A DNA stretch of 64,000 bases, taken from positions 47,871 to 111,870 of the IMG/VR virus record IMGVR_UViG_3300028027_000002; one strand, given 5' to 3'. Below are positions 16,229 through 62,663 of this stretch, piece after piece; position 1 is the first letter of the stretch, and each line of letters begins with the position of its first letter. Position numbers and translations under genes: made by a program. A model generated the notes under the pieces. The model had not been told where the DNA came from. It did not search any database and was given only the letters and a program-made list of their open reading frames with translations. The DNA comes from a virus.

Positions 16229-16536
16229 TGGCTGAGCGCAAAGACCGAATGGCTTTGCTTTCAAGATACAGCAAGTATCATACCGCAAGGTACGAATCAA
16301 AGCCATCCCTTAATCTAAATGTAGAACAGTGGGCTTCAGATGCCCTTGTTGAATCATATGGCATTTCAGGATGTTACGATATACTTGAGTATTACTTTAA
16401 GGTTGCAGAGAATCCTTCTTGGAACTACTTTGCATACAATGCAGAAAAGATTTTACAGGCACAAAAAGATAAAAGCAGAGACGATAACGAGAGAGCAGAG
16501 CGTAGAAGAATGGCGAAGGAGTGGCTAAGTGAATAA
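16228..16536 (+). CDS. Small protein upstream of helicase
   Basis: A 102-residue, helical, highly charged protein. It is coupled to its neighbours at both ends: TAATG upstream and an 8-base overlap with the helicase downstream. The position suggests a helicase loader or partner, but no motif proves this. Confidence 0.55.
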   Translation: MAERKDRMALLSRYSKYHTARYESKPSLNLNVEQWASDALVESYGISGCYDILEYYFKVAENPSWNYFAYNAEKILQAQKDKSRDDNERAERRRMAKEWLSE

Positions 16537-17749
16537 TACAGAGTCCAAACTAATTACTGCAGTTCTTCAAGACAAGCAGATCCATGTGCTACTACAAGCA
16601 AATGTAGACAATCTTCTTAGAACTCATGGAGATATCTGGAACTTTATAAGGCTATACTTTGAAAACAATAAGTCTCTTCCTCCTGCAGAACTTGTTACAG
16701 AAAAGTTTAGAGACTTCTCTCCAATATCAAATGTTGGAGCAACTAAGCACCACCTTGAAGAGTTGCAGGGTGAGTACTTAAACGATAGTTTAAAAGATAT
16801 TTTGCGTTCAGCAGCAACTAATGTTCAAAACAATCAAGGTAATGTCGCATTAAATGATTTAATTACACAAACCTCAGAGTTAAAGAAAAACACTTCAGCA
16901 ATCCGTGATATTGATGTAACAGACCTAGAGTCTGCAATTGCATACTTTGAAAACTTAAAGATCCAGCAAGCAGCAGGTCATGTTGGAATCAAAACAAATC
17001 TGCCAGGGTTTGACAACTATCTTCCATCTGGAATTATGCCAGGGCAGTTAGGAGTCTTTCTAGCATACCCAGGTATAGGAAAGTCATGGATGGCTTTGTA
17101 CTTCGCTGTACAGGCCTGGAAGCAGGGTAAGACACCCCTTGTAATTTCTCTTGAGATGTCAGAGACAGAAGTTCGTAATCGTGTATTTACAATTATGGGT
17201 GAGGGTCTTTGGTCTCACAGAAAGTTAAGCAATGGAGATGTGGAACTAGATACTTTAAAGGCTTGGCATGCTAAGCATCTGCAGGGCAAGCCAGAGTTTC
17301 ACATTATCTCTAACGATCAGGGTGGAGAAATTAATCCATCAGTTCTTCGTGGAAAGATTGACCAGTACAAGCCAGACTTTGTAATTGTTGACTACCTTCA
17401 GTTAATGGCTCCTAATCAGAAGTCAGATAATGAAACGGTACGAATGAAGAACCTTTCAAGAGAACTTAAACTCATGGCTATTGGCGAAGAGGTTCCTATT
17501 ATTGCTATCTCTTCTGCTACACCAGATGATGTTAATGATCTTAGTGGTGTTCCTACTTTGGGACAAACTGCTTGGTCAAGACAGATTGCATACGATGCTG
17601 ACTGGGTTATTGCCTTGGGACGAGCATCAAACAGCGATATCATTGAGTGCGCCTTTAGAAAGAACCGTAATGGCTTTATGGGAGACTTTTTGGTTCAGGT
17701 TGATTTTGACAAGGGATACTACAGGTATAAAGATTATGAAGATAAGTAG
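16529..17749 (+). CDS. dnaB: DnaB-type replicative helicase
   Basis: A 406-residue protein with GTG start. A RecA-type core is clear: Walker A in LGVFLAYPGIGKSW, Walker B in PDFVIVDYLQLM, and an SREL motif for the DnaB family. A short N-terminal helical domain precedes it. It should unwind DNA at the phage fork as a hexamer. Primase, ssDNA-binding protein and polymerase follow directly. Confidence 0.92.
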   Translation: MNNTESKLITAVLQDKQIHVLLQANVDNLLRTHGDIWNFIRLYFENNKSLPPAELVTEKFRDFSPISNVGATKHHLEELQGEYLNDSLKDILRSAATNVQNNQGNVALNDLITQTSELKKNTSAIRDIDVTDLESAIAYFENLKIQQAAGHVGIKTNLPGFDNYLPSGIMPGQLGVFLAYPGIGKSWMALYFAVQAWKQGKTPLVISLEMSETEVRNRVFTIMGEGLWSHRKLSNGDVELDTLKAWHAKHLQGKPEFHIISNDQGGEINPSVLRGKIDQYKPDFVIVDYLQLMAPNQKSDNETVRMKNLSRELKLMAIGEEVPIIAISSATPDDVNDLSGVPTLGQTAWSRQIAYDADWVIALGRASNSDIIECAFRKNRNGFMGDFLVQVDFDKGYYRYKDYEDK

Positions 17750-17761: not shown

Positions 17762-18115
17762 ATGTCGAAAAGTACGGAGAATGCTCCACCTACCTTCTAT
17801 CATCATAAGCCTATCAAAAAGTTTTATCTTGATGGGGTTATACACGATGAGTCGGCACTTGGTAGGCTTAAAGCAGAGTATGTCAGACTCCTTGAGTCAG
17901 AGATGCGACTTTCGGGGTATGTTCCAAGAATCGATATATTACCAGACTTTACATTAGACTATAACCACAAGAAAAAATATTTTGAATTTCAATTAACAGT
18001 ACACGGAACATATACGGGGAGAAAACAAAGCGAATGGATAGCAGGAATAGACGGAAGCACAGCAATCTATACACAAAAGAGCAAATCAAAAGAGTTCTCA
18101 CAGGAACAGGTGTAA
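17762..18115 (+). CDS. Unknown protein between helicase and primase
   Basis: A 117-residue protein with its own leaderless promoter. No recognised motif; the C-terminal part is Lys/Ser-rich. It overlaps the primase frame by about 80 bases. The context suggests a replication accessory role. Confidence 0.55.
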   Translation: MSKSTENAPPTFYHHKPIKKFYLDGVIHDESALGRLKAEYVRLLESEMRLSGYVPRIDILPDFTLDYNHKKKYFEFQLTVHGTYTGRKQSEWIAGIDGSTAIYTQKSKSKEFSQEQV

Positions 18116-18978
18116 CGATTGAGTCTGAGGTTGACTCAGACTATATTATTTTCTGTCCATATCACAACAACAACAGAACCCCAGCAGGAGAAATAGATAA
18201 GAACAATGGAACTTTCTTTTGTTTTGCATGTCACCACGTAACTGGATTTATCGAATTTGTTATGCACATGTCAAACAGGACATACTTTGAGGCTGCAAGA
18301 TTTATAAAGAGCAAAGAGACAGAGACAAGTATTGAAACAGACATTGACAAGGCTCTATATAAAAAGCCAGAGTTTATAATGTTTGATGAACTAGTTCTTA
18401 AACGATTGCACAACAATCTTATTTTATCTGATAGAGCAAAAGATTATTTTACTTATAGAAAAATAACAAAAGAGTCTGCCTCTAAATTTTCTTTAGGGTA
18501 TTCAGATAAACAAGACATGGTAACTGTTCCAGTTCATAGTCCAGATGGTTTGCCAATTGGTTTTGTTGGAAGATCAATTGAGGGCAAGGAGTTTAAGAAT
18601 ACCCCAGGACTTCCAAAGTCTAAAACATTATTTAATTTGCATAGAGTAAAAAGTTCTGGAACAGTCTATGTTGTTGAGTCATCGTTTGATGCTATCAGAC
18701 TTGACCAAGTAGGGCTTCCTGCAATTGCTACCCTTGGATCAAATGTTTCTAACATACAAATAGATTTGCTTCAAAAGTACTTCAATGATATAATTGTTAT
18801 TGCGGATAATGATGAAGCAGGTGGAAATATGAAAACTAAGATAGTTGAAAAACTTGGTTCTCGTGTATCCGTAATACAACTAAATAAGCAATATAAAGAT
18901 ATAGGCGACATGGACGATAAGTCAATTAAAGAACTGGATTTCCAGTTTGACAAATCAATACAGTCTATGCTAAACTAA
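18034..18978 (+). CDS. DnaG-type primase (CHC2 zinc finger + TOPRIM)
   Basis: A 314-residue protein with an N-terminal zinc finger CPYH...CFACHH (about residues 42-70) and a TOPRIM domain with VVESSFDA and IVIADNDEAGG (about residues 205-265). It should make RNA primers. It is shorter than bacterial DnaG and lacks a helicase-binding C-terminal domain of normal size. The ATG at 18034 is the first in frame; a later start is possible because of the long overlap with the previous gene. Confidence 0.88.
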   Translation: MDSRNRRKHSNLYTKEQIKRVLTGTGVTIESEVDSDYIIFCPYHNNNRTPAGEIDKNNGTFFCFACHHVTGFIEFVMHMSNRTYFEAARFIKSKETETSIETDIDKALYKKPEFIMFDELVLKRLHNNLILSDRAKDYFTYRKITKESASKFSLGYSDKQDMVTVPVHSPDGLPIGFVGRSIEGKEFKNTPGLPKSKTLFNLHRVKSSGTVYVVESSFDAIRLDQVGLPAIATLGSNVSNIQIDLLQKYFNDIIVIADNDEAGGNMKTKIVEKLGSRVSVIQLNKQYKDIGDMDDKSIKELDFQFDKSIQSMLN

Positions 18979-19002: not shown

Positions 19003-19656
19003 ATGGCAATACTAAGAGGAATCAAAGAAATGGGCCCAGTACTAGACGGCCCAAAGGGTGGCGACGGCCCAAAGGTTAAGTGGCTAAAACTTGCAGATGG
19101 ACAGTCTGTAAAGATTAGATTCGTAGAAGAACTTGATGAGGACTCAGCAAACTACAGTCCTGATCGTGGTCTAGCAATCGTTGTATCAGAACACACAAAT
19201 CCAAAGGACTACAAGCGTAAGGCTGTAGACACAATGGACACAGAAGGTCGTGACTGGGCAGAAGAGATGCATCGTAAGGATCCAAAGGCTGGCTGGAGAG
19301 CCCGTCTTCGTTTCTATTGCAACGTAGTTGTAGATGACGGCATTGAAGCACCTTATGTTGCAATCTGGTCAATGGGTATTAGCAAGCAATCATCATTCAA
19401 CACAATTCGTGAGTATGCACTTGAAACAGGAAGCATCTCAAATGTACAGTGGAAGTTAAAGCGTAATGGTCAGGGAACTGAAACAAATTACACATTGATT
19501 CCATCTGCACCAGATAAGGAACCATTCAACTGGGGAGACATTAAGCCTTACCCACTAGAGTCTGCACTACGCAAGGTTCCATACGCAGAACAAGAAGCGT
19601 TCTACTTGGGCTTTGACGGCCCATCTGCCACTTCAGCAACAAACGCTGATTGGTAA
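19003..19656 (+). CDS. Single-stranded DNA-binding protein (putative)
   Basis: A 217-residue protein preceded by an AGAAAAG site. It has a Gly-rich N-terminus and a beta-rich core (VKIRFVEELD, RARLRFYCNVVVDD, YVAIWSMG), and ends in Asp-Trp, reminiscent of SSB tails. It sits between primase and polymerase. Similar genes in actinophage replication modules are annotated as SSB. No diagnostic motif is present, so this is mainly context. Confidence 0.6.
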   Translation: MAILRGIKEMGPVLDGPKGGDGPKVKWLKLADGQSVKIRFVEELDEDSANYSPDRGLAIVVSEHTNPKDYKRKAVDTMDTEGRDWAEEMHRKDPKAGWRARLRFYCNVVVDDGIEAPYVAIWSMGISKQSSFNTIREYALETGSISNVQWKLKRNGQGTETNYTLIPSAPDKEPFNWGDIKPYPLESALRKVPYAEQEAFYLGFDGPSATSATNADW

Positions 19657-19657
19657 T

Positions 19658-22600
19658 ATGAACTACGTCGGCTTACATGTCCACACCCATTTTAGTTTAT
19701 TTGATGGGATTGCTACTCCAGAAGAATACGTTGAACGTGCAGTTGAGTTAGGGATGCCAGCAATTGCCATCACTGACCACGGTACTTTATCTGGGCATAG
19801 GGAACTGCACCGTATTGCAAAAGCAAAGGGCATTAAGCCAATTCTAGGTCTAGAAGGATACATGTGTTCAGACATATCTGATAAAAGAGATAAGTCTGAA
19901 AGAGAAGGTCAACAAGATCTTGTCTACAATCACATTATCCTTCTAGCCAAGAATCAAATTGGTTTAGAAAACCTCAACAAGATTAGTGAACTATCTTGGA
20001 CAGATGGTTTCTTTAAAAAGCCACGATTTGACTTTACTATTTTAGAAAAATACAAAGAAGGAATCATTGTTTCCTCTGCTTGCCCAAGTAGCGTTTTAGT
20101 TAAAGCACTTGAAGAAGAAGAGTTTGCTCTTGCTAAGAAGTACATCTCTTGGTTTAAAGAGCGCTTTGCAGATGATTATTATATTGAGGTAATGCCTCAC
20201 AATGAAGCACACATTAACAAATATCTCATAGAACTTGCAGATGAGTTTGGCATTAAGGTTATTGTAACCCCAGACTGCCACCATGTTGATCCATCACAAA
20301 AAGAAATTCAAGAGTTTAAGTTGCTAATGAATACACATGGTAAGTTCGTAAAAGATGCAACATATGAAAAGTCAAAGAAAAAGGGCAGCATGATGGAGCG
20401 CCTTGACTATCTATATGGCGAAGATCGTCAGATGTCATTTAATAAATTTGACATCCATTTGCTATCTTATGAAGAGATTAAAGCAGCCATGGAAGCGCAG
20501 GGTATTGATCGACCAGACATTTACTCAAACACAATACTATTAGCAGAGACAGTAGGAGACTATGGCATTCAAGAAGGACTAAACCTTCTACCAGTACAGT
20601 ACAAGAGTCCTGACAAGGAACTTGCAAAGGTGGCATTAGAAGGTTTGGCAGAGCGAGGTTTGTCAGAGAATCAAGAGTACCTTGACAGACTTGAGGAAGA
20701 GTTGCAGATTATTAAGGACAAGAAGTTTGCTCCATACTTCCTGGTTGTAAGCAATATGATTAACTGGGCTAAGAAAGAAGAGATTATGGTAGGACCAGGT
20801 CGTGGTTCATCTGCTGGCTCTCTTGTTTGCTACGCATTAAAGATTACAGACATTGATCCTATCGAGCATAACCTCTTATTCTTCCGTTTTATTAATCCAG
20901 AGCGTAACGACTTCCCAGATATTGATACAGATATTCAGGACACTCGTCGTGAAGAGGTAAAGGATTATCTTGTTAGACAGTATCGGCATGTTGCATCTAT
21001 TGCTACCTTCCTTGAGTTCACAGGTAAGGGAATTGTTAGAGATGTTTCAAGAGTTCTAAATATTCCTTTGTCAGATGTAAACAAGGTTTTGAAAACTGTA
21101 GACTCATGGGATGATTTCTGTACATCAAAATCAACATACGAGTTTCGTGAGAAGTATCCAGAGGTAGAGGTTTACGGAGAACAACTTCGTGGTCGAATTC
21201 GTGGCACAGGTATTCACGCTGCTGGTGTTGTTACTGCAAAAGAACCAATCTTTAGGTATGCACCACTTGAAACAAGATCATCTACTGGGTCTGACGAAAG
21301 AATTCCAGTAGTTGGTGTTGACATGGAAGAGGCTGAAAGAATTGGTTTAATTAAGATTGATGCACTTGGTCTTAAGACTTTGTCTGTTCTTAAGAACACA
21401 ATTGATATTATTAAAGAGCGAGATGGCAAAAAGATTGATCTTCTTAAGATCAAGATGGACGATGCAAATGTATATCAGATGCTATCAGATGGATATACAA
21501 AGGGTGTATTTCAGTGTGAAGCAGCACCATATACAAACCTTCTTGTTAAGATGGGTGTAAAGAATCTAAATGAACTTGCAGCATCAAACGCACTTGTTCG
21601 TCCAGGTGCAATGAATACTATTGGAAAGGACTATGTTGATCGTAAACATGGTCGTCAGAATATTTCTTATACACACCAAGTACTAAAACAATTTACGGAG
21701 GACACTTATGGCTGTATTCTTTACCAGGAACAAGTTATGCAAGCATGCGTACACCTTGGCGGTATGTCCATGTCGGAAGCAGATAAAGTTAGAAAGATCA
21801 TTGGCAAGAAAAAAGATGCTAAAGAATTTGATCAGTTTAAAGAGAAGTTCGTAGAGGGTGCATCAAAGTTTATTTCGCCCAACCTTGCTCGTGATCTATG
21901 GCATGACTTTGAGGCTCACGCAGGGTACTCATTTAATAAGTCTCACGCAGTAGCATACTCAACGCTATCATATTGGACAGCATGGCTAAAGTATTACTAC
22001 CCACTTGAGTTTATGTACTCAGTGCTAAAGAACGAAAAGGATAAAGATGCGAGAACTGAATATCTTATTGAAGCAAAGAGAATGGGCATTAGCGTTAAGT
22101 TACCTCACATTAACGATTCGGATATCGATTTTAAAATTGAGGGTAAGGGTATTAGGTTTGGGCTCACTGCTATCAAGTTCATATCTGACAAAATTGCAGA
22201 AAGATATATTGCAGCACGACCATTTGGTTCGTACAAAGAACTTGAAGAGTTTACATTTACCAAAGGCAACGGAGTAAACAGTCGTGCACTTCAAGCACTT
22301 AGGGTAATCGGTGCAGCAACATTTAATGATAATCCTAGAAATGATCAGGAGATTAAAGAGAACCTGTATGAATACTTAAACCTTCCAGAGTTTAATATTA
22401 CAATACCTTCTCACTACTATGCCTTCATTCAGGATATTGTTGACTTTGAAGAAAAAGGGTCATACATTTTTATGGGTATGGTAAAATCAATTAAACGAGG
22501 AACAGGATGGTCACGAGTTGAAATTTTGGACAAAACTGGCAGTGTCGGTATATTTGATGATGAAAATACGACTATTGAGACAGGTCGTTCTTATCTGGTC

Positions 22601-22933
22601 TTGTGTAATGATAACAGGATTGTTTCTTTCATACCTTCAGATGAGATAAAAGAATCATCACACGCTCTTGTAAAGTTCTTAAGTTATAAGCAACTTCCAT
22701 ACAAGGATGATGAGATGTTTGTGGTTTCATTTAAGCCAAGAATTACAAAGACTGGAAAGAAGATGGCATCTCTTACTCTTGCAGATACAAGCAGGGACCT
22801 GCATTCAATTACAGTTTTCCCTACATCGTTTGCAAAAGCATACATGCATATCGAAGAAGGAAAATCTTATAAGTTTGATTTTGGCAAGACTAAAGACGGA
22901 ACAGTAACATTGGAGGATGTACATGTCAGTTAG
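19658..22933 (+). CDS. dnaE: DNA polymerase III alpha subunit (DnaE-type)
   Basis: A 1091-residue protein from ATG 19658, two bases after the previous stop; an upstream in-frame ATG at 19613 is inside the previous gene. The N-terminal PHP domain has HVHTHFSLFDG and DHGTLSG. The catalytic palm carries GPGRGSSAGSL and PDIDTDIQD, and the fingers and HhH region SFNKSHAVAYS. A C-terminal OB fold (YIFMGMVKSIKRGTGW) follows. It should be the phage replicase, and is nearly full bacterial length. Confidence 0.95.
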   Translation: MNYVGLHVHTHFSLFDGIATPEEYVERAVELGMPAIAITDHGTLSGHRELHRIAKAKGIKPILGLEGYMCSDISDKRDKSEREGQQDLVYNHIILLAKNQIGLENLNKISELSWTDGFFKKPRFDFTILEKYKEGIIVSSACPSSVLVKALEEEEFALAKKYISWFKERFADDYYIEVMPHNEAHINKYLIELADEFGIKVIVTPDCHHVDPSQKEIQEFKLLMNTHGKFVKDATYEKSKKKGSMMERLDYLYGEDRQMSFNKFDIHLLSYEEIKAAMEAQGIDRPDIYSNTILLAETVGDYGIQEGLNLLPVQYKSPDKELAKVALEGLAERGLSENQEYLDRLEEELQIIKDKKFAPYFLVVSNMINWAKKEEIMVGPGRGSSAGSLVCYALKITDIDPIEHNLLFFRFINPERNDFPDIDTDIQDTRREEVKDYLVRQYRHVASIATFLEFTGKGIVRDVSRVLNIPLSDVNKVLKTVDSWDDFCTSKSTYEFREKYPEVEVYGEQLRGRIRGTGIHAAGVVTAKEPIFRYAPLETRSSTGSDERIPVVGVDMEEAERIGLIKIDALGLKTLSVLKNTIDIIKERDGKKIDLLKIKMDDANVYQMLSDGYTKGVFQCEAAPYTNLLVKMGVKNLNELAASNALVRPGAMNTIGKDYVDRKHGRQNISYTHQVLKQFTEDTYGCILYQEQVMQACVHLGGMSMSEADKVRKIIGKKKDAKEFDQFKEKFVEGASKFISPNLARDLWHDFEAHAGYSFNKSHAVAYSTLSYWTAWLKYYYPLEFMYSVLKNEKDKDARTEYLIEAKRMGISVKLPHINDSDIDFKIEGKGIRFGLTAIKFISDKIAERYIAARPFGSYKELEEFTFTKGNGVNSRALQALRVIGAATFNDNPRNDQEIKENLYEYLNLPEFNITIPSHYYAFIQDIVDFEEKGSYIFMGMVKSIKRGTGWSRVEILDKTGSVGIFDDENTTIETGRSYLVLCNDNRIVSFIPSDEIKESSHALVKFLSYKQLPYKDDEMFVVSFKPRITKTGKKMASLTLADTSRDLHSITVFPTSFAKAYMHIEEGKSYKFDFGKTKDGTVTLEDVHVS

Positions 22934-23933
22934 TATAGAAGAAGCGTTAGCACAACTTGATCCTAAGTTGAGAAAGAGATTAGGTAGCGGAGTAGGGGTT
23001 AACTATGAATATCAGCCTACACCTAGTTTTGGTTTAAACCGTGCTTTAGGAGGAGGACTGCCTTATGGTAGACAAGTTCTTATCTGGGGCTCTAAGTCTT
23101 CTGCAAAGTCCTCTATGTGCCTTCAGATGATTGCTCTAGCACAAGCAGAGGGAAAGTTGTGTGCTTGGATTGACTCAGAGATGTCCTACTCAGAAGACTG
23201 GGCTAGAACACTTGGGGTAGATCCAGAAAAACTAATCTATTCACAAGCAAGAACTATTAGCGATATGGTGGATGTAGGTGTTGGATTAATGAATGCAGGA
23301 GTTGATTTAATTGTGGTAGACTCTATTACATCGATGCTTCCTGCAATTTATTTTGAAAAGGATACAGATGAGATGAAGGCTTTGGAAAACACAAAGCAGA
23401 TTGGAGCAGAATCCCGTGACTTTAGTAACGCATGGAAAATGCTTAACTATGCAAACAATAAAGTTAAGCCAACTTTGCTTGTTCTTATTTCTCAGTCTCG
23501 TAATAATATTAATGCTATGTATACTAGCCAGCAGCCTTCTGGTGGTCAGGCTACTAAGTTTTATTCCTCATGTATTATTAAACTCTTTTCTTCAGAGTCA
23601 GACAATCAAGCGATTAAGGGCAAGATTAAGGTAGGAGATAAATTAATTGAAGAAAAAATTGGTAGGACTATTAAGTGGGAACTCCAGTTCTCCAAAACCT
23701 CTCCAGGGTTCCAGTCTGGTGAGTACGATTTTTATTTTAGAGGTGACGATATTGGTCTTGATACCATTGGTGATCTGGTTACTACCGCAGAACTAAATGG
23801 TATTGTAGAGCGCACAGGAGCATGGTATATACTTCCTGACGGATCAAAAGTGCAGGGCAAAGAAGCATTTGTTAATCGTGTAAGGGAGGATCTTGATTTG
23901 CAAGAATCAATCAAGGCTAAACTAAATGCCTAG
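22923..23933 (+). CDS. UvsX/RecA-like recombinase
   Basis: A 336-residue protein. GGAGG at 22912-22916 has ideal spacing to ATG 22923, so the ATG at 22917 is unlikely. The Walker A region is GSKSSAKS, with Ala where RecA has Gly, like the altered P-loop of T4 UvsX. The Walker B is DLIVVDSIT, and LLVLISQSRNN corresponds to the L1 region. It should promote strand exchange and recombination-dependent repair. It overlaps the polymerase end by 11 bases. Confidence 0.88.
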   Translation: MSVSIEEALAQLDPKLRKRLGSGVGVNYEYQPTPSFGLNRALGGGLPYGRQVLIWGSKSSAKSSMCLQMIALAQAEGKLCAWIDSEMSYSEDWARTLGVDPEKLIYSQARTISDMVDVGVGLMNAGVDLIVVDSITSMLPAIYFEKDTDEMKALENTKQIGAESRDFSNAWKMLNYANNKVKPTLLVLISQSRNNINAMYTSQQPSGGQATKFYSSCIIKLFSSESDNQAIKGKIKVGDKLIEEKIGRTIKWELQFSKTSPGFQSGEYDFYFRGDDIGLDTIGDLVTTAELNGIVERTGAWYILPDGSKVQGKEAFVNRVREDLDLQESIKAKLNA

Positions 23934-41864: not shown

Positions 41865-42149
41865 ATGCCAAAGCACGAATGGAAAGATGATGCTTTGTGT
41901 TTAGATTACGACACAAATATATTCTTTGAAAAGTATGAAGATGATGAACTTCTAAGACCTGCAGTAGACAAACTTTGTTCTATGTGTCCAGTGTCTAAGA
42001 TGTGTTTTGCTGTTGGTGTTTCACAAAAAGAGTGGGGTATCTGGGGTGGAGTTTATCTCGAAGGTGGACAAATATCTAAAGAGTTTTCAAAACATAAGTC
42101 TAAAACAGACTGGGCAAATACTTGGCAAAGACTAACAACGGAGCAATAA
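41865..42149 (+). CDS. WhiB-family Fe-S regulator
   Basis: A 94-residue protein. Cysteines at 12, 38, 41 and 47 give the WhiB pattern C-x25-CxxC-x5-C, followed by the beta-turn GIWGGVYL. WhiB proteins occur only in actinobacteria and their phages and bind sigma-A region 4. It may redirect the host polymerase, a candidate partner for the unusual right-arm promoters. Confidence 0.93.
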   Translation: MPKHEWKDDALCLDYDTNIFFEKYEDDELLRPAVDKLCSMCPVSKMCFAVGVSQKEWGIWGGVYLEGGQISKEFSKHKSKTDWANTWQRLTTEQ

Positions 42150-48932: not shown

Positions 48933-49709
48933 TCAAGTAAAAAGATTTTTGTTATCTTTAACAAAATTAACTATCTTAATTCTATACTCTTCAGGCCAGT
49001 AACAATAAAACATCACACCTTCTATTCCATCTAACTTTAATTCGTTAATGATTTCTTTTAACTCCAAAGTTGTTGTTAATCTTATATCAGATCCAAGTTC
49101 TTTGCTGTTTTTTAATTTATTAAATTTTTCTTCATCATCTTCTATAAGTGGAAACATAGATAAAACTCTTGGTTTTGATATTTTTTTGTACTTAGCCACT
49201 TCAGCATGTGACTGGTATGCTGCAAAACTGTAGTCTCCATAGTTCTCAACAAGGGAGTTCATATCATCACCTTTACCAGATATGCATATCTTTGTTTCTA
49301 TTTTTAACTTTTTACAAAAATCAAAGAAGATTGGTATATAGTTTTTTAAATATTCTCTTCTTTCATAAAGGCTGGATGTATCATTTATCTCACCGATTAT
49401 CCCGCCCATACTTTTTTCTTCATCTAAAATTTGCCCAGACACAAAATTAATCCAAACCCTGCCAACATCTATAGAGTTTAATGATTTAATTATCATTCCA
49501 AGATTTTGTGGAGAAATTGTGTAAGGTCTGACTGCAACAATGTAAGTAAAATTCTGATCACTTTTAAGTGATCTGGCTATCTGTACAAAATAATCTCCAA
49601 CATCTGACCCATATGGCAAAAGGATTCCGCTGAAGCCATTGCTTTCTAAATCTAAAGACATTTCAGAAAGATTATTGTTGTGAGTTCTTCCAAACCAATA
49701 AACATTCAT
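48933..49709 (-). CDS. Luciferase-like (SsuD-type) monooxygenase 3
   Basis: A 258-residue protein beginning MNVYWFGRTHNN. FTYIVAVRPYTISPQN...VGRVWINFVSGQ and GGIIGEINDTSSLYERREYL align with the other two copies and with SsuD. Closest to copy 2. The SsuD Cys and Arg/His active residues are not evident (LSMFPLIEDDEEK). Confidence 0.75.
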   Translation of the reverse strand: MNVYWFGRTHNNNLSEMSLDLESNGFSGILLPYGSDVGDYFVQIARSLKSDQNFTYIVAVRPYTISPQNLGMIIKSLNSIDVGRVWINFVSGQILDEEKSMGGIIGEINDTSSLYERREYLKNYIPIFFDFCKKLKIETKICISGKGDDMNSLVENYGDYSFAAYQSHAEVAKYKKISKPRVLSMFPLIEDDEEKFNKLKNSKELGSDIRLTTTLELKEIINELKLDGIEGVMFYCYWPEEYRIKIVNFVKDNKNLFT

Positions 49710-53078: not shown

Positions 53079-53402
53079 TTAAAATGATAGGATTGTAGCA
53101 ACAAATAGAGCAAGGATTAGAAGCCCAAACGAACCACACAAGAAGAGAGCAACACCATTTAGATATACCTGATTCATTGCTGATTTTCTAAGTTGGTTTG
53201 GCTTTGTATAAAACTCTGGATCAATACTTTCTATTAAAGCCCTTGCCTCATTCACAGGAATCTTTTCTTCCCTTGCAGCACCAAAGATATCTCTGACTGC
53301 TTCATCAACATATAGTTTTGCATCTTCTGGAGATAACTCAGACATTTCTTTTTTGATTCTTATCTTAAGGTGTACAAGGCTTTCTCCGTCTTTTAGTATC
53401 AT
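53079..53402 (-). CDS. Membrane-anchored helical protein
   Basis: A 107-residue protein, helical and charged, with a C-terminal membrane segment (GVALFLCGSFGLLILALFVATIL). A TATACT lies about 30 bases upstream; the strong promoters at 53660-53740 would give it a long leader. Confidence 0.55.
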   Translation of the reverse strand: MILKDGESLVHLKIRIKKEMSELSPEDAKLYVDEAVRDIFGAAREEKIPVNEARALIESIDPEFYTKPNQLRKSAMNQVYLNGVALFLCGSFGLLILALFVATILSF

Positions 53403-53466
53403 TGTAATCTTTCTGTTGTAGTTATATTCTAAGTATATACCCGCAGATGTGGTTTGTCAATAGGAC

Positions 53467-53520
53467 TTATCCACAGATAAATACCCATAAAAATGTTAGT
53501 TATCCACACCTTTATCCACA
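53467..53520 (+). repeat. Three DnaA-box-like repeats
   Basis: Perfect TTATCCACA at 53467-53475, 53500-53508 and 53512-53520, all in the same direction. The nonamer equals the bacterial DnaA box. Three in 54 bases is much denser than chance. Confidence 0.7.
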
Positions 53521-53557
53521 GATAAATGTTACTGATTATATTATTAGACAGTCTAGA

Positions 53558-53587
53558 AGTGGAGTGAAGTGGAGGATAGTGGAGTAG
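53558..53587 (+). repeat. Three 10-bp direct repeats (AGTGGAG)
   Basis: AGTGGAGTGA, AGTGGAGGAT and AGTGGAGTAG start at 53558, 53568 and 53578, one helical turn apart. This phasing suggests co-operative protein binding on one face of the DNA, as in iterons. Confidence 0.6.
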
Positions 53588-53659
53588 GGAGCATCTTTAA
53601 AGAGGGCGTCGTAATCTTTTATAGCGGCCAAACCTCACATCTCCAAACCTTATAGCCCC

Positions 53660-53688
53660 CTTATACCACATATGAATCATATTGTCAA
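53660..53688 (-). promoter_or_regulatory. Consensus leftward promoter
   Basis: TTGACA, a 17-base spacer and TATAAG on the reverse strand. An AAGGTTTG box (53686-53693) overlaps the -35 element. Confidence 0.7.
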
Positions 53689-53711
53689 ACCTTTGTATGC
53701 ATGGTTTGGGC

Positions 53712-53740
53712 ATTATATACCAAACCTTTGTATTTGTCAA
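53712..53740 (-). promoter_or_regulatory. Perfect consensus leftward promoter
   Basis: TTGACA, a 17-base spacer and TATAAT on the reverse strand, the strongest promoter seen. An AAGGTTTG box lies in the spacer (53721-53728), so a repressor there would block it. The first downstream gene starts 310 bases away. Confidence 0.82.
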
Positions 53741-53927
53741 GCCCATTTTATGCCAAAACCTCATATAAAATTTGCTCAAATTTGCTCAGAAAATAAAGAA
53801 AACCTTCATAAAAATATATAAAGGTTTGGAAAAGTTTTAAAAATCAGGAAATAATTTATAGTGGTTTGTTATGGTGTATATACTATAGGGGATTGTGGGT
53901 TTCATCTTGATCCCCTGGCAAAATCGC

Positions 53928-54018
53928 CTGGTACGGGGAAGAAAAATGCTCCATCGTAATCTTATTTTGAAAAGCCCTGGTACGGGGAAAAATTTTGCTC
54001 CTTCGTAATCTTTTTTTA
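53928..54018 (+). repeat. 49-bp tandem repeat (TACGGGG...CGTAATC)
   Basis: Two copies with CTGGTACGGGGAA and TCGTAATCTT(A/T)TTTT separated by about 20 variable bases; both landmarks repeat at 49 bases. Related units occur at 54309 and 57259. Confidence 0.75.
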
Positions 54019-54246
54019 GAAGAGCGTCAGTTGTGTATAGACGTTGTCCCCACCTGCGGTGTCCTTAGCAGGATTATGATTCATTTTTAGCGGGGGAGAC
54101 TTAGGAAAGAAAGCCTTAAGAGTAACAATAGAATACAACATACCAGTTAAAGCACCCACTGCTTGATCAAACCCATATGAATCATATGGTGTATCATGTC
54201 TATGTGATTTGCTATTAATCATCTGAGCAAAATGGTCTCTAGGCAT
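54016..54246 (-). CDS. 76-residue unknown protein
   Basis: Leaderless: TATAAT (54253-54258, reverse) ends six bases before ATG 54246; the longer frame from 54282 crosses the promoter. One hydrophobic segment (ALTGMLYSIVTLKAFF) in an otherwise polar protein. Not recognised. Confidence 0.55.
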   Translation of the reverse strand: MPRDHFAQMINSKSHRHDTPYDSYGFDQAVGALTGMLYSIVTLKAFFPKSPPLKMNHNPAKDTAGGDNVYTQLTLF

Positions 54247-54275
54247 ATCTTTATTATAACACCAGATATGAAGGT

Positions 54276-54304
54276 TTGACAAACAAGGTTTGATATGGTA
54301 TAAG
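54276..54304 (+). promoter_or_regulatory. Consensus rightward promoter with no gene
   Basis: TTGACA, a 17-base spacer, TATAAG. AAGGTTTG boxes overlap the -35, the spacer and the -10 (54271, 54285, 54302). The transcript would start near 54311, at a TACGGGG repeat, and run into genes on the other strand, so it may make an untranslated or antisense RNA. Confidence 0.65.
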
Positions 54305-54308
54305 GTTT

Positions 54309-54384
54309 GGTACGGGGAAAAGAATTCGTCCTTCGTAATCTTATTCTGGGAAAAATAAATGAGTGATCGTAATCTTATTTTGGA
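54309..54384 (+). repeat. Two further TACGGGG/CGTAATC units
   Basis: GGTACGGGGAAAA...CTTCGTAATCTTATTCTGGG and GGGAAAAATAAA...ATCGTAATCTTATTTTGG, with a period of 34 bases. Two GACGTC palindromes overlap in tandem at 54423-54434 shortly after. The gap 54247-54481 has no gene. Confidence 0.65.
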
Positions 54385-54481
54385 AATGTGGTTTGTCTAA
54401 TATGTCCGATTTGATATGATTTGACGTCGACGTCCCATAACCCCAGGCTTTTGTCAAGCCCAGGGATCAAGGATAAGATAG

Positions 54482-54793
54482 TTACTCTTGTGTGTCGGGT
54501 GGTGTGTTTTCTTTTTTGTTGTAGGCAAACGCCAAAATTGAGCCAAGGTCTCTATCTTCAATAGAGCCATCAACTTCTTCCTCAGTGACATTAATTAAAT
54601 CTAGAAACATCTTGAATGTTTCATTAATCATTTCTTCACCAAGTGGTGTTAGGTCTTTAATCAAACCTTGTGCCACCATGTATGCCATTGGACAACCTAG
54701 GTCGTTGTATTCCATAAAATTCTTGAAGTCTTCATCTTCACGGAATTCAATCCATAGTTGACCAATCGTTCCTGCTTTATCTGCGAAGTCCAT
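54482..54793 (-). CDS. Acidic helical protein
   Basis: A 103-residue acidic protein behind AAAGGA. Helical; overlaps the gene upstream by 17 bases. Not recognised. Confidence 0.55.
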   Translation of the reverse strand: MDFADKAGTIGQLWIEFREDEDFKNFMEYNDLGCPMAYMVAQGLIKDLTPLGEEMINETFKMFLDLINVTEEEVDGSIEDRDLGSILAFAYNKKENTPPDTQE

Positions 54794-58603: not shown

Positions 58604-58687
58604 TGTGGATAAATCGGACATTGTGGTGAAGATCACCTATCGTAAACGGCGTGTCGATTTGACAAAGTTATCCACAGGCGGGACGTC
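58604..58687. repeat. Intergenic module: DnaA boxes and GACGTC
   Basis: TTATCCACA occurs inverted at 58604-58612 and direct at 58668-58676, followed by GACGTC 58682-58687. A TATCGTAAAC element at 58639 lies between. Confidence 0.6.
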
Positions 58688-61706: not shown

Positions 61707-61747
61707 TTATCCACAGGTTATCCCCAGACACACCCGAACGCGACGTC
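61707..61747. repeat. Intergenic module: DnaA box and GACGTC
   Basis: TTATCCACA 61707-61715, then TTATCCCCA 61718-61726 (one mismatch), then GACGTC 61742-61747. A GGGGAAAAG...CTTCTTAAAG relative lies at about 61635. Confidence 0.6.
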
Positions 61748-62634: not shown

Positions 62635-62663
62635 TTATCCACAGGTTATCCACAGGCGACGTC
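62635..62663. repeat. Intergenic module: two DnaA boxes and GACGTC
   Basis: TTATCCACA at 62635-62643 and 62646-62654, 11 bases apart, then GACGTC 62658-62663 immediately before the terminator stem. Confidence 0.65.

Follow-up and report, generated by a model that had tools for sequence, protein, structure and literature searches.

Introduction

Bacterial chromosomal origins (oriC) usually lie by dnaA-dnaN, often at a turn of the GC skew. In iteron origins, found in plasmids and in plasmid-prophages like P1 (oriR), DnaA boxes adjoin AT-rich DNA and short repeats in phase. To our knowledge, how replication starts in large lytic phages that encode their own helicase, primase and polymerase has seldom been established.

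In the basal unwinding system (BUS), a pair of DnaA boxes in the same orientation precedes a series of triplets that are conserved at their middle base (PMC8287927, PMC6669920, PMC8235120, PMC7561715). On the top strand the triplet reads 5'-CTA-3' with a strictly conserved T, and the triplets begin 0-16 bp past the box (PMC8287927, PMC8235120, PMC7561715, PMC6669920). In H. pylori, triplets sharing the middle T alone did not open (PMC8235120). The criteria used here for a BUS (PMC8287927) are a box with at most two mismatches to TTATCCACA, a second box with at most four, and at least three trios (NAN, read 3' to 5') beginning 0-16 bp after the box, on the strand opposite to that which reads TTATCCACA. 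In the left half of E. coli oriC, R1 and the DUE are accompanied by arrays of low-affinity sites in opposite orientations (Rozgaja 2011, cited in PMC10797057). Among actinophages, cluster A mycobacteriophages possess RNA-based and RepA prophage origins (PMC7157519), and in single phages origins have been predicted by counting boxes (PMC11512268). The literature searched, whose coverage was incomplete, yielded no report of a DnaA-trio or BUS element, or of host-DnaA use, in a lytic phage, and novelty is therefore stated with caution.

An actinophage-like virus with its own replisome

The stretch of DNA analyzed here, hereafter the window, comprises 64,000 nucleotides (bases 47,871-111,870) of a 111.9-kb virus record, and positions are those of the window unless stated otherwise. 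The first 99 bases of the record are identical to its last 99, and the map thus closes into a circle. The record encodes tail proteins, DnaB, DnaG, SSB, a DnaE-type polymerase, RecA and RuvC, and is, judging by its predicted genes, an actinophage-like virus. The genes that bear on replication and host assignment are the following:

16529-17749, plus strand: phage DnaB-like helicase
18034-18978, plus strand: phage DnaG-like primase
19003-19656, plus strand: phage single-strand binding protein (SSB)
19613-22933, plus strand: phage DnaE-like DNA polymerase III alpha
22917-23933, plus strand: phage RecA/UvsX-like recombinase
41,880-42,053 (record 89,750-89,923): WhiB gene

The DnaE protein shares 54.6% identity with the polymerase of Streptomyces phage BillNye (Stanwilliamsviridae), and WhiB is described as restricted to Actinobacteriota and as marking actinophages (PMC10202952). 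Together, the WhiB gene and the BillNye-like polymerase point to a low-GC freshwater actinobacterium as the probable host, whose DnaA specificity would be the one to consider. Megablast and blastn returned no near relative among annotated phages. As the initial annotation had noted, the phage has its own DnaB and primase and no recognized initiator: both genes are present, and no DnaA domain was detected in the 111.9-kb record by searches that detect DnaA in most or all control genomes. Likewise, none of the ten early genes scanned gave a Pfam initiator match. The early-region gene at 48933-49709 on the minus strand weakly matches luciferase-like monooxygenases, with a Pfam E of 1.7e-4 that does not reach the cut-off.

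Architecture of the element

A compact predicted element, in which a 5-nt spacer separates co-oriented DnaA boxes from about seven trio-like triplets and a phased array comes next, is the sole strong match of this kind in the genome. Its parts are:

53467-53475, plus strand: third, outer DnaA box, exact TTATCCACA, co-oriented and 33 bp (about three helical turns) further out
53500-53508, plus strand: tandem partner DnaA box, exact TTATCCACA, 12 bp from the proximal box
53512-53520, plus strand: DnaA box proximal to the candidate unwinding region, exact TTATCCACA
53521-53525, plus strand: 5-nt spacer GATAA between proximal box and ladder, with no GC cluster
53526-53546, plus strand: AT-rich DnaA-trio-like ladder ATG TTA CTG ATT ATA TTA TTA, 3'-NAN-5' on the opposite strand
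53558-53584, plus strand: three AGTGGAG units (CTCCACT on the minus strand) in 10-bp steps

The three boxes within 54 bases that had first drawn attention to the site are indeed exact, at 53467, 53500 and 53512 and all on the plus strand, and the three AGTGGAG units described as 10-bp-phased start at 53558, 53568 and 53578, in steps of exactly 10 bp. The AT-rich stretch is likewise present (53521-53550), with a further one near 53790-53860; AT content reaches 87% in 30 bp. A box count above that expected from base composition was borne out for exact boxes, with 13 in the genome vs 1.5 per simulated genome, but not at one mismatch, where the window holds 24 vs 21 expected and enrichment is lacking. 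Three boxes within 60 bp were found in 0 of 200 simulated genomes.

The ladder run of seven is the longest genome-wide, and the focal site alone combines exact tandem boxes with a run of at least six, a combination found in none of 20 simulated genomes. The ladder (53526-53546) is the likely unwinding site. E. coli-type single-strand motifs (TTATT/TTGTT) occur in the ladder of 36 of 66 copies vs 20 in shuffles, which is suggestive at most. The AGTGGAG array may possibly consist of low-affinity DnaA sites or serve as a dock for a phage factor, both roles being putative.

Of the 13 exact boxes, ten are extragenic; they are spread over some 13 kb of the circle (genome 100,694 to 2,201), mostly in one orientation, and several of them form 11-bp tandem pairs. 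Other exact or near-exact boxes were observed in early gene gaps (window 58604-58676, 61707-61726 and 62635-62654; genome 2190-2209), where several read TTATCCACAGGTTATCCACAGG, with GACGTC palindromes behind them and AATCGGACATTGTG nearby. These further early-gap boxes are not accompanied by a trio ladder and may mark DnaA-controlled early promoters.

The kilobase around the element and its immediate flanks contain the following additional features:

53079-53402, minus strand: gene downstream of the element, encoding 107 aa and preceded by its own promoter (53460-53432); relatives have unrelated genes in its place
53432-53460, minus strand: separate promoter TTGACA-17-TATACT directly before gene 53079-53402
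53660-53688, minus strand: second promoter TTGACA-17-TATAAG, in the same direction as the strong one
53712-53740, minus strand: strong sigma-70-type promoter TTGACA-17-TATAAT, 12/12 consensus, pointing through the element
53927-54381, minus strand: four degenerate copies of AAGATTACGA..GGAG..TTCCCCGTACC, conserved in near relatives
54016-54246, minus strand: small ORF of 76 codons, conserved in near relatives, with tblastn relatives in 35 loci
54253-54282, minus strand: promoter TTGTCA-18-TATAAT, conserved in relatives and placed a few bases ahead of the start codon (ATG, 54246)
54276-54304, plus strand: opposed promoter-like site TTGACA-17-TATAAG
54482-54793, minus strand: gene A, 103 aa, conserved neighbor on the promoter side of the element

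Promoter-like sites number 16 vs 4.6 +/- 1.9 in shuffles. Since they are predicted on both strands, several on the minus strand (including the 12/12 site at 53740 to 53712) and one on the plus strand (54276-54304), the earlier description of divergent consensus promoters holds. The kilobase had also been called gene-poor; it is not empty, as it contains the small ORF at 54016-54246, four AAGATTACGA...TTCCCCGTACC repeats and many copies of CAAACCTT and AAGGTTTG. This small gene is likely leaderless, given that its ATG stands just after the TATAAT box. The motif CAAACCTT occurs 23 times in the window vs 3.6 expected, seven of these copies falling in 53644-54309; it is concentrated in the gene-free kilobase around the conserved promoters and is possibly a regulator site. 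No known RNA was found at the site with Rfam.

Conservation among relatives

A first set of relatives was retrieved with a pattern that contains the element itself, the proximal box and two array units being required, and that is present in at least 119 viral contigs. In this set, the middle T at positions 7, 10, 13, 16, 19, 22 and 25 past the proximal box is kept in 83, 84, 82, 76, 74, 66 and 61 of 86 distinct copies, respectively, while positions 17, 18, 20 and 23 vary freely in the same copies. The retention of every third T among varying neighbors is clearest at positions 16-25, in the 86 copies as in a thinned set. The longest T-run averages 5.9 vs 3.1 in shuffled sequences, and one register is common to 80 of the 86 copies. 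Among dissimilar copies, the boxes are spaced by 11-12 bp in 55 of the 63 that have a second box; at least three co-oriented boxes fall within 300 bp in 50 of 66, and opposed boxes in none of the 66. Two to three phased AGTGGAG units are present in 66/66, two being demanded by the pattern. Of 61 dissimilar relatives, 53 have a consensus promoter no more than 400 bp upstream, where 1.95 would be expected, and in most of those listed it stands 113-159 bp before the array with a 17-bp spacing.

Because the search pattern itself holds the element, this first set cannot prove an association, and a second set was therefore assembled through gene A alone. Relatives of gene A were found in 104 of the loci searched and number 546 in the viral-contig collection; residues F26, N30, D31, G33 and P35 are invariant. 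Its AlphaFold model is all-helical and confident (pLDDT 91), and neither PDB nor BFVD yielded a matching fold. Gene A was considered as a recognizable initiator and rejected as such, having no PHROG, Pfam or NCBIfam match and no fold match. In this gene-A-anchored set, 42 of 44 dissimilar loci carry, 670-965 bp past gene A, two co-oriented boxes spaced by 10-13 bp, and such a pair appeared in 0 of 2200 shuffles. All 42 copies retain the ladder register, with a mean run of 6.5 vs 2.7 in shuffled sequences, and CTCCACT stands beside the box pair in 41 of them. The two exceptions (L275 and L303) retain the CTCCACT array and CAGTAAGAT, their boxes being degenerate or absent.

In near-complete relatives, the element is single-copy in 10 of 10, the boxes are clustered at it, and each genome has 6-13 boxes. 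The first ORF downstream of the element belongs to 33 families among 60 relatives, and the element is thus not the private switch of one gene. The relatives descend from a common ancestor, and TTACTGAT, which forms part of the core, might have been kept for a different reason. Four matches to the element were obtained in bacterial genome contigs, of which three are probably due to chance. The fourth, CANGYR010000020.1 (L221), has the complete phage element; it was assigned to a Chitinophagaceae MAG and is probably a mis-binned phage contig.

Comparison with described systems

Both boxes of the tandem pair are exact, co-oriented and 12 bp apart, and seven trios follow from 5 bp past the box, with a conserved register and a polarity that agrees with PMC8235120; on its predicted features, the element conforms to the published sequence definition of a BUS. 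The preferred trios are 3'-GAT-5' and 3'-AAT-5'; in the ladder, TTA (3'-AAT) takes three of the seven positions and CTG (3'-GAC) one, ATG, ATT and ATA being misfits and CTA being absent. A GC-rich tract between box and trios is absent from the GATAA spacer, and the published search does not require one, though it is frequent. The element thus resembles the B. subtilis BUS, formed by DnaA-boxes 6/7 and the DnaA-trios (PMC6669920, PMC8287927, PMC10721633), in its co-oriented boxes followed by triplets on the correct side and strand, in its AT-rich DNA and in a spacing inside the limits. It differs in belonging to a phage genome without dnaA, in its GATAA rather than GC-rich spacer and in its degenerate triplets (TTA/CTG/ATT/ATA). 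Moreover, the phage element runs on into a 10-bp-phased AGTGGAG array, with a promoter pointing through it.

As far as the left half of E. coli oriC is presented in PMC10797057, the phage element shares with it an AT-rich unwinding stretch located to the same side of TTATCCACA and an oppositely oriented array containing TCCAC; however, AGTGGAG matches 5-6 of the 9 DnaA-box positions and is too divergent for its units to be called boxes on sequence alone. The element may work like an oriC though it is not one: it resides in a phage record without DnaA, and the skew extremes lie elsewhere. With iteron origins of the P1 oriR type it has in common boxes, AT-rich DNA and phased short repeats. Unlike these origins, it has no recognized RepA gene, and no rep gene belonging to a known family of initiators was found beside it; its units are 7 bp in length rather than long iterons, and its core seems to be boxes and ladder, not repeats. 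The cluster A prophage origins are likewise extrachromosomal actinophage origins, and their non-RepA type lacks a recognized host-initiator homologue (PMC7157519); they differ in serving prophage maintenance next to parABS and in using a noncoding RNA, and the word DnaA is absent from the text of that paper (PMC7157519).

Eleven related Streptomyces phages (Loccivirinae) carry exact TTATCCACA boxes at both ends of a conserved gene-free block in the right-hand region. In BillNye, the box cluster spans 119,428-119,715, with a conserved block of about 230 nt between boxes, and in several of these phages one end of the block is a 12-bp tandem TGTGGATAAACCTGTGGATAACT, almost as in the freshwater family. 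The likeness to the freshwater element lies in the exact boxes and the gene-free, right-hand location; the difference lies in the block of about 230 nt that separates the boxes, and the Loccivirinae clusters are not annotated as origins. No trio-like ladder (judged by eye) or CTCCACT array was seen beside the Streptomyces-phage boxes.

The block itself (BillNye 119,484-119,704; L100 42400-42620) is conserved in Stanwilliamsviridae, and part of it is also found, without boxes, in the Streptomyces tectivirus Forthebois (L224 920-1130), which implies that it has some other role, possibly as a noncoding RNA or control element. It has no Rfam match. A structured RNA was considered and is not convincing, as the column-shuffle z of -2.9 is accompanied by equal stability of the reverse strand. 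No plasmids holding the BillNye segment were found. In addition, 27 bases of BillNye gene-free DNA (L100 42970-42996) are identical in many Mycobacterium phages (such as Goku and SirDuracell), where they lie about 75 bases or less from the genome end.

A probable replication origin and its alternatives

The element at 53467-53584 is probably a phage replication origin opened by host DnaA. The initial annotation had suggested that host DnaA may start replication here, and this suggestion gains support from conservation in 42 of 44 relatives, the single-copy nature of the element, the changing downstream gene and the replisome without DnaA. Host DnaA would bind the co-oriented boxes at 53500 and 53512, aided by the box at 53467, and a DnaA-ATP filament would then cross the 5-nt spacer onto the ladder (53526-53546) and melt the AT-rich DNA, as in BUS. 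Phage DnaB and DnaG would be loaded next, with phage SSB and DnaE. Conjecturally, the phased AGTGGAG array and the strong promoter across the element might aid opening, helicase loading or priming. We infer DnaA binding, melting, helicase loading and initiation at this site from sequence comparison. Several features weigh against this reading: the triplets are degenerate, and H. pylori triplets sharing the middle T alone did not open (PMC8235120); the spacer lacks a GC cluster; two relatives have degenerate boxes or none; and the Streptomyces phages show no visible ladder. Since the array outlives the boxes in two relatives, a phage protein binding CTCCACT is likely to matter too.

Analysis of GC skew, which had been proposed as a check, lends the origin no support and is uninformative to mildly negative. 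Across the record the skew does not turn at the element; its extremes, near 14 and 94 kb, track gene direction. The skew of BillNye, in which the genes on either flank run the same way, does not flip at the box cluster either. The absence of a signal is expected if skew follows transcription, and one usual line of evidence is thereby removed.

The main alternative, which we consider unlikely, is a transcription control region at which host DnaA represses, activates or roadblocks early promoters, allowing the phage to sense or manipulate the cell cycle. DnaA is a known transcription factor, the strong promoter conserved in 53 of 61 relatives points through the boxes, and other tandem boxes occur with GACGTC palindromes and without a ladder in early intergenic DNA. 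Nevertheless, the genes downstream differ (33 families in 60 relatives), that of the window has its own promoter beyond the boxes, and the boxes stand about 190-240 bp past the conserved promoter instead of on it. Moreover, a repressor site needs neither a conserved three-base ladder nor AT-rich DNA.

It is quite improbable that TTATCCACA and CTCCACT are instead bound by a phage regulator, partition-like protein or initiator and that the likeness to DnaA sites is incidental, an explanation under which replication could still start here. Repeated sites in a single orientation resemble stoperators in layout. Systems of the L5 type combine a repressor gene with asymmetric sites scattered over many gene gaps, all in the same orientation relative to transcription; here the 10 extragenic boxes are mostly in one orientation over about 13 kb, and no repressor was recognized. 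The persistence of the CTCCACT array and CAGTAAGAT in the two relatives with degenerate boxes, together with the adjoining gene A, conserved and without a fold match, would suit such a protein. However, the boxes are identical at every position to the strongest DnaA box known, in low-GC and 53%-GC phages alike; the tandem pair, its spacing and the polarity of the ladder fit published DnaA-unwinding modules, and no candidate protein was recognized. Finally, a decoy that titrates host DnaA and halts initiation on the host chromosome is hardly credible. The ten exact boxes in gene-free early-region DNA would suit it, but a decoy would need no ladder, phasing, single-copy element or fixed position, and boxes are few in each genome (6-13).

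Concluding remarks

Beyond an origin opened by host DnaA in the window itself, we tentatively put forward a broader proposition, which we hold a little short of an even balance: that a large and abundant, apparently lytic lineage of freshwater actinophages with its own replisome starts lytic replication from a single retained DnaA unwinding module of bacterial type, which is linked to a promoter and to a new phased CTCCACT element, with host DnaA as the initiator. Being conserved, about 120 bp long and open to a specific, testable mechanism, the element offers a direct target. If host DnaA indeed opens it, the element would be a new phage version of a known origin type, and its many public variants would provide a natural comparison set for DnaA boxes and trios in low-GC actinobacteria, for which tools are scarce. 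Ultimately, the first round of phage replication would be tied to the cell-cycle initiator of the host.
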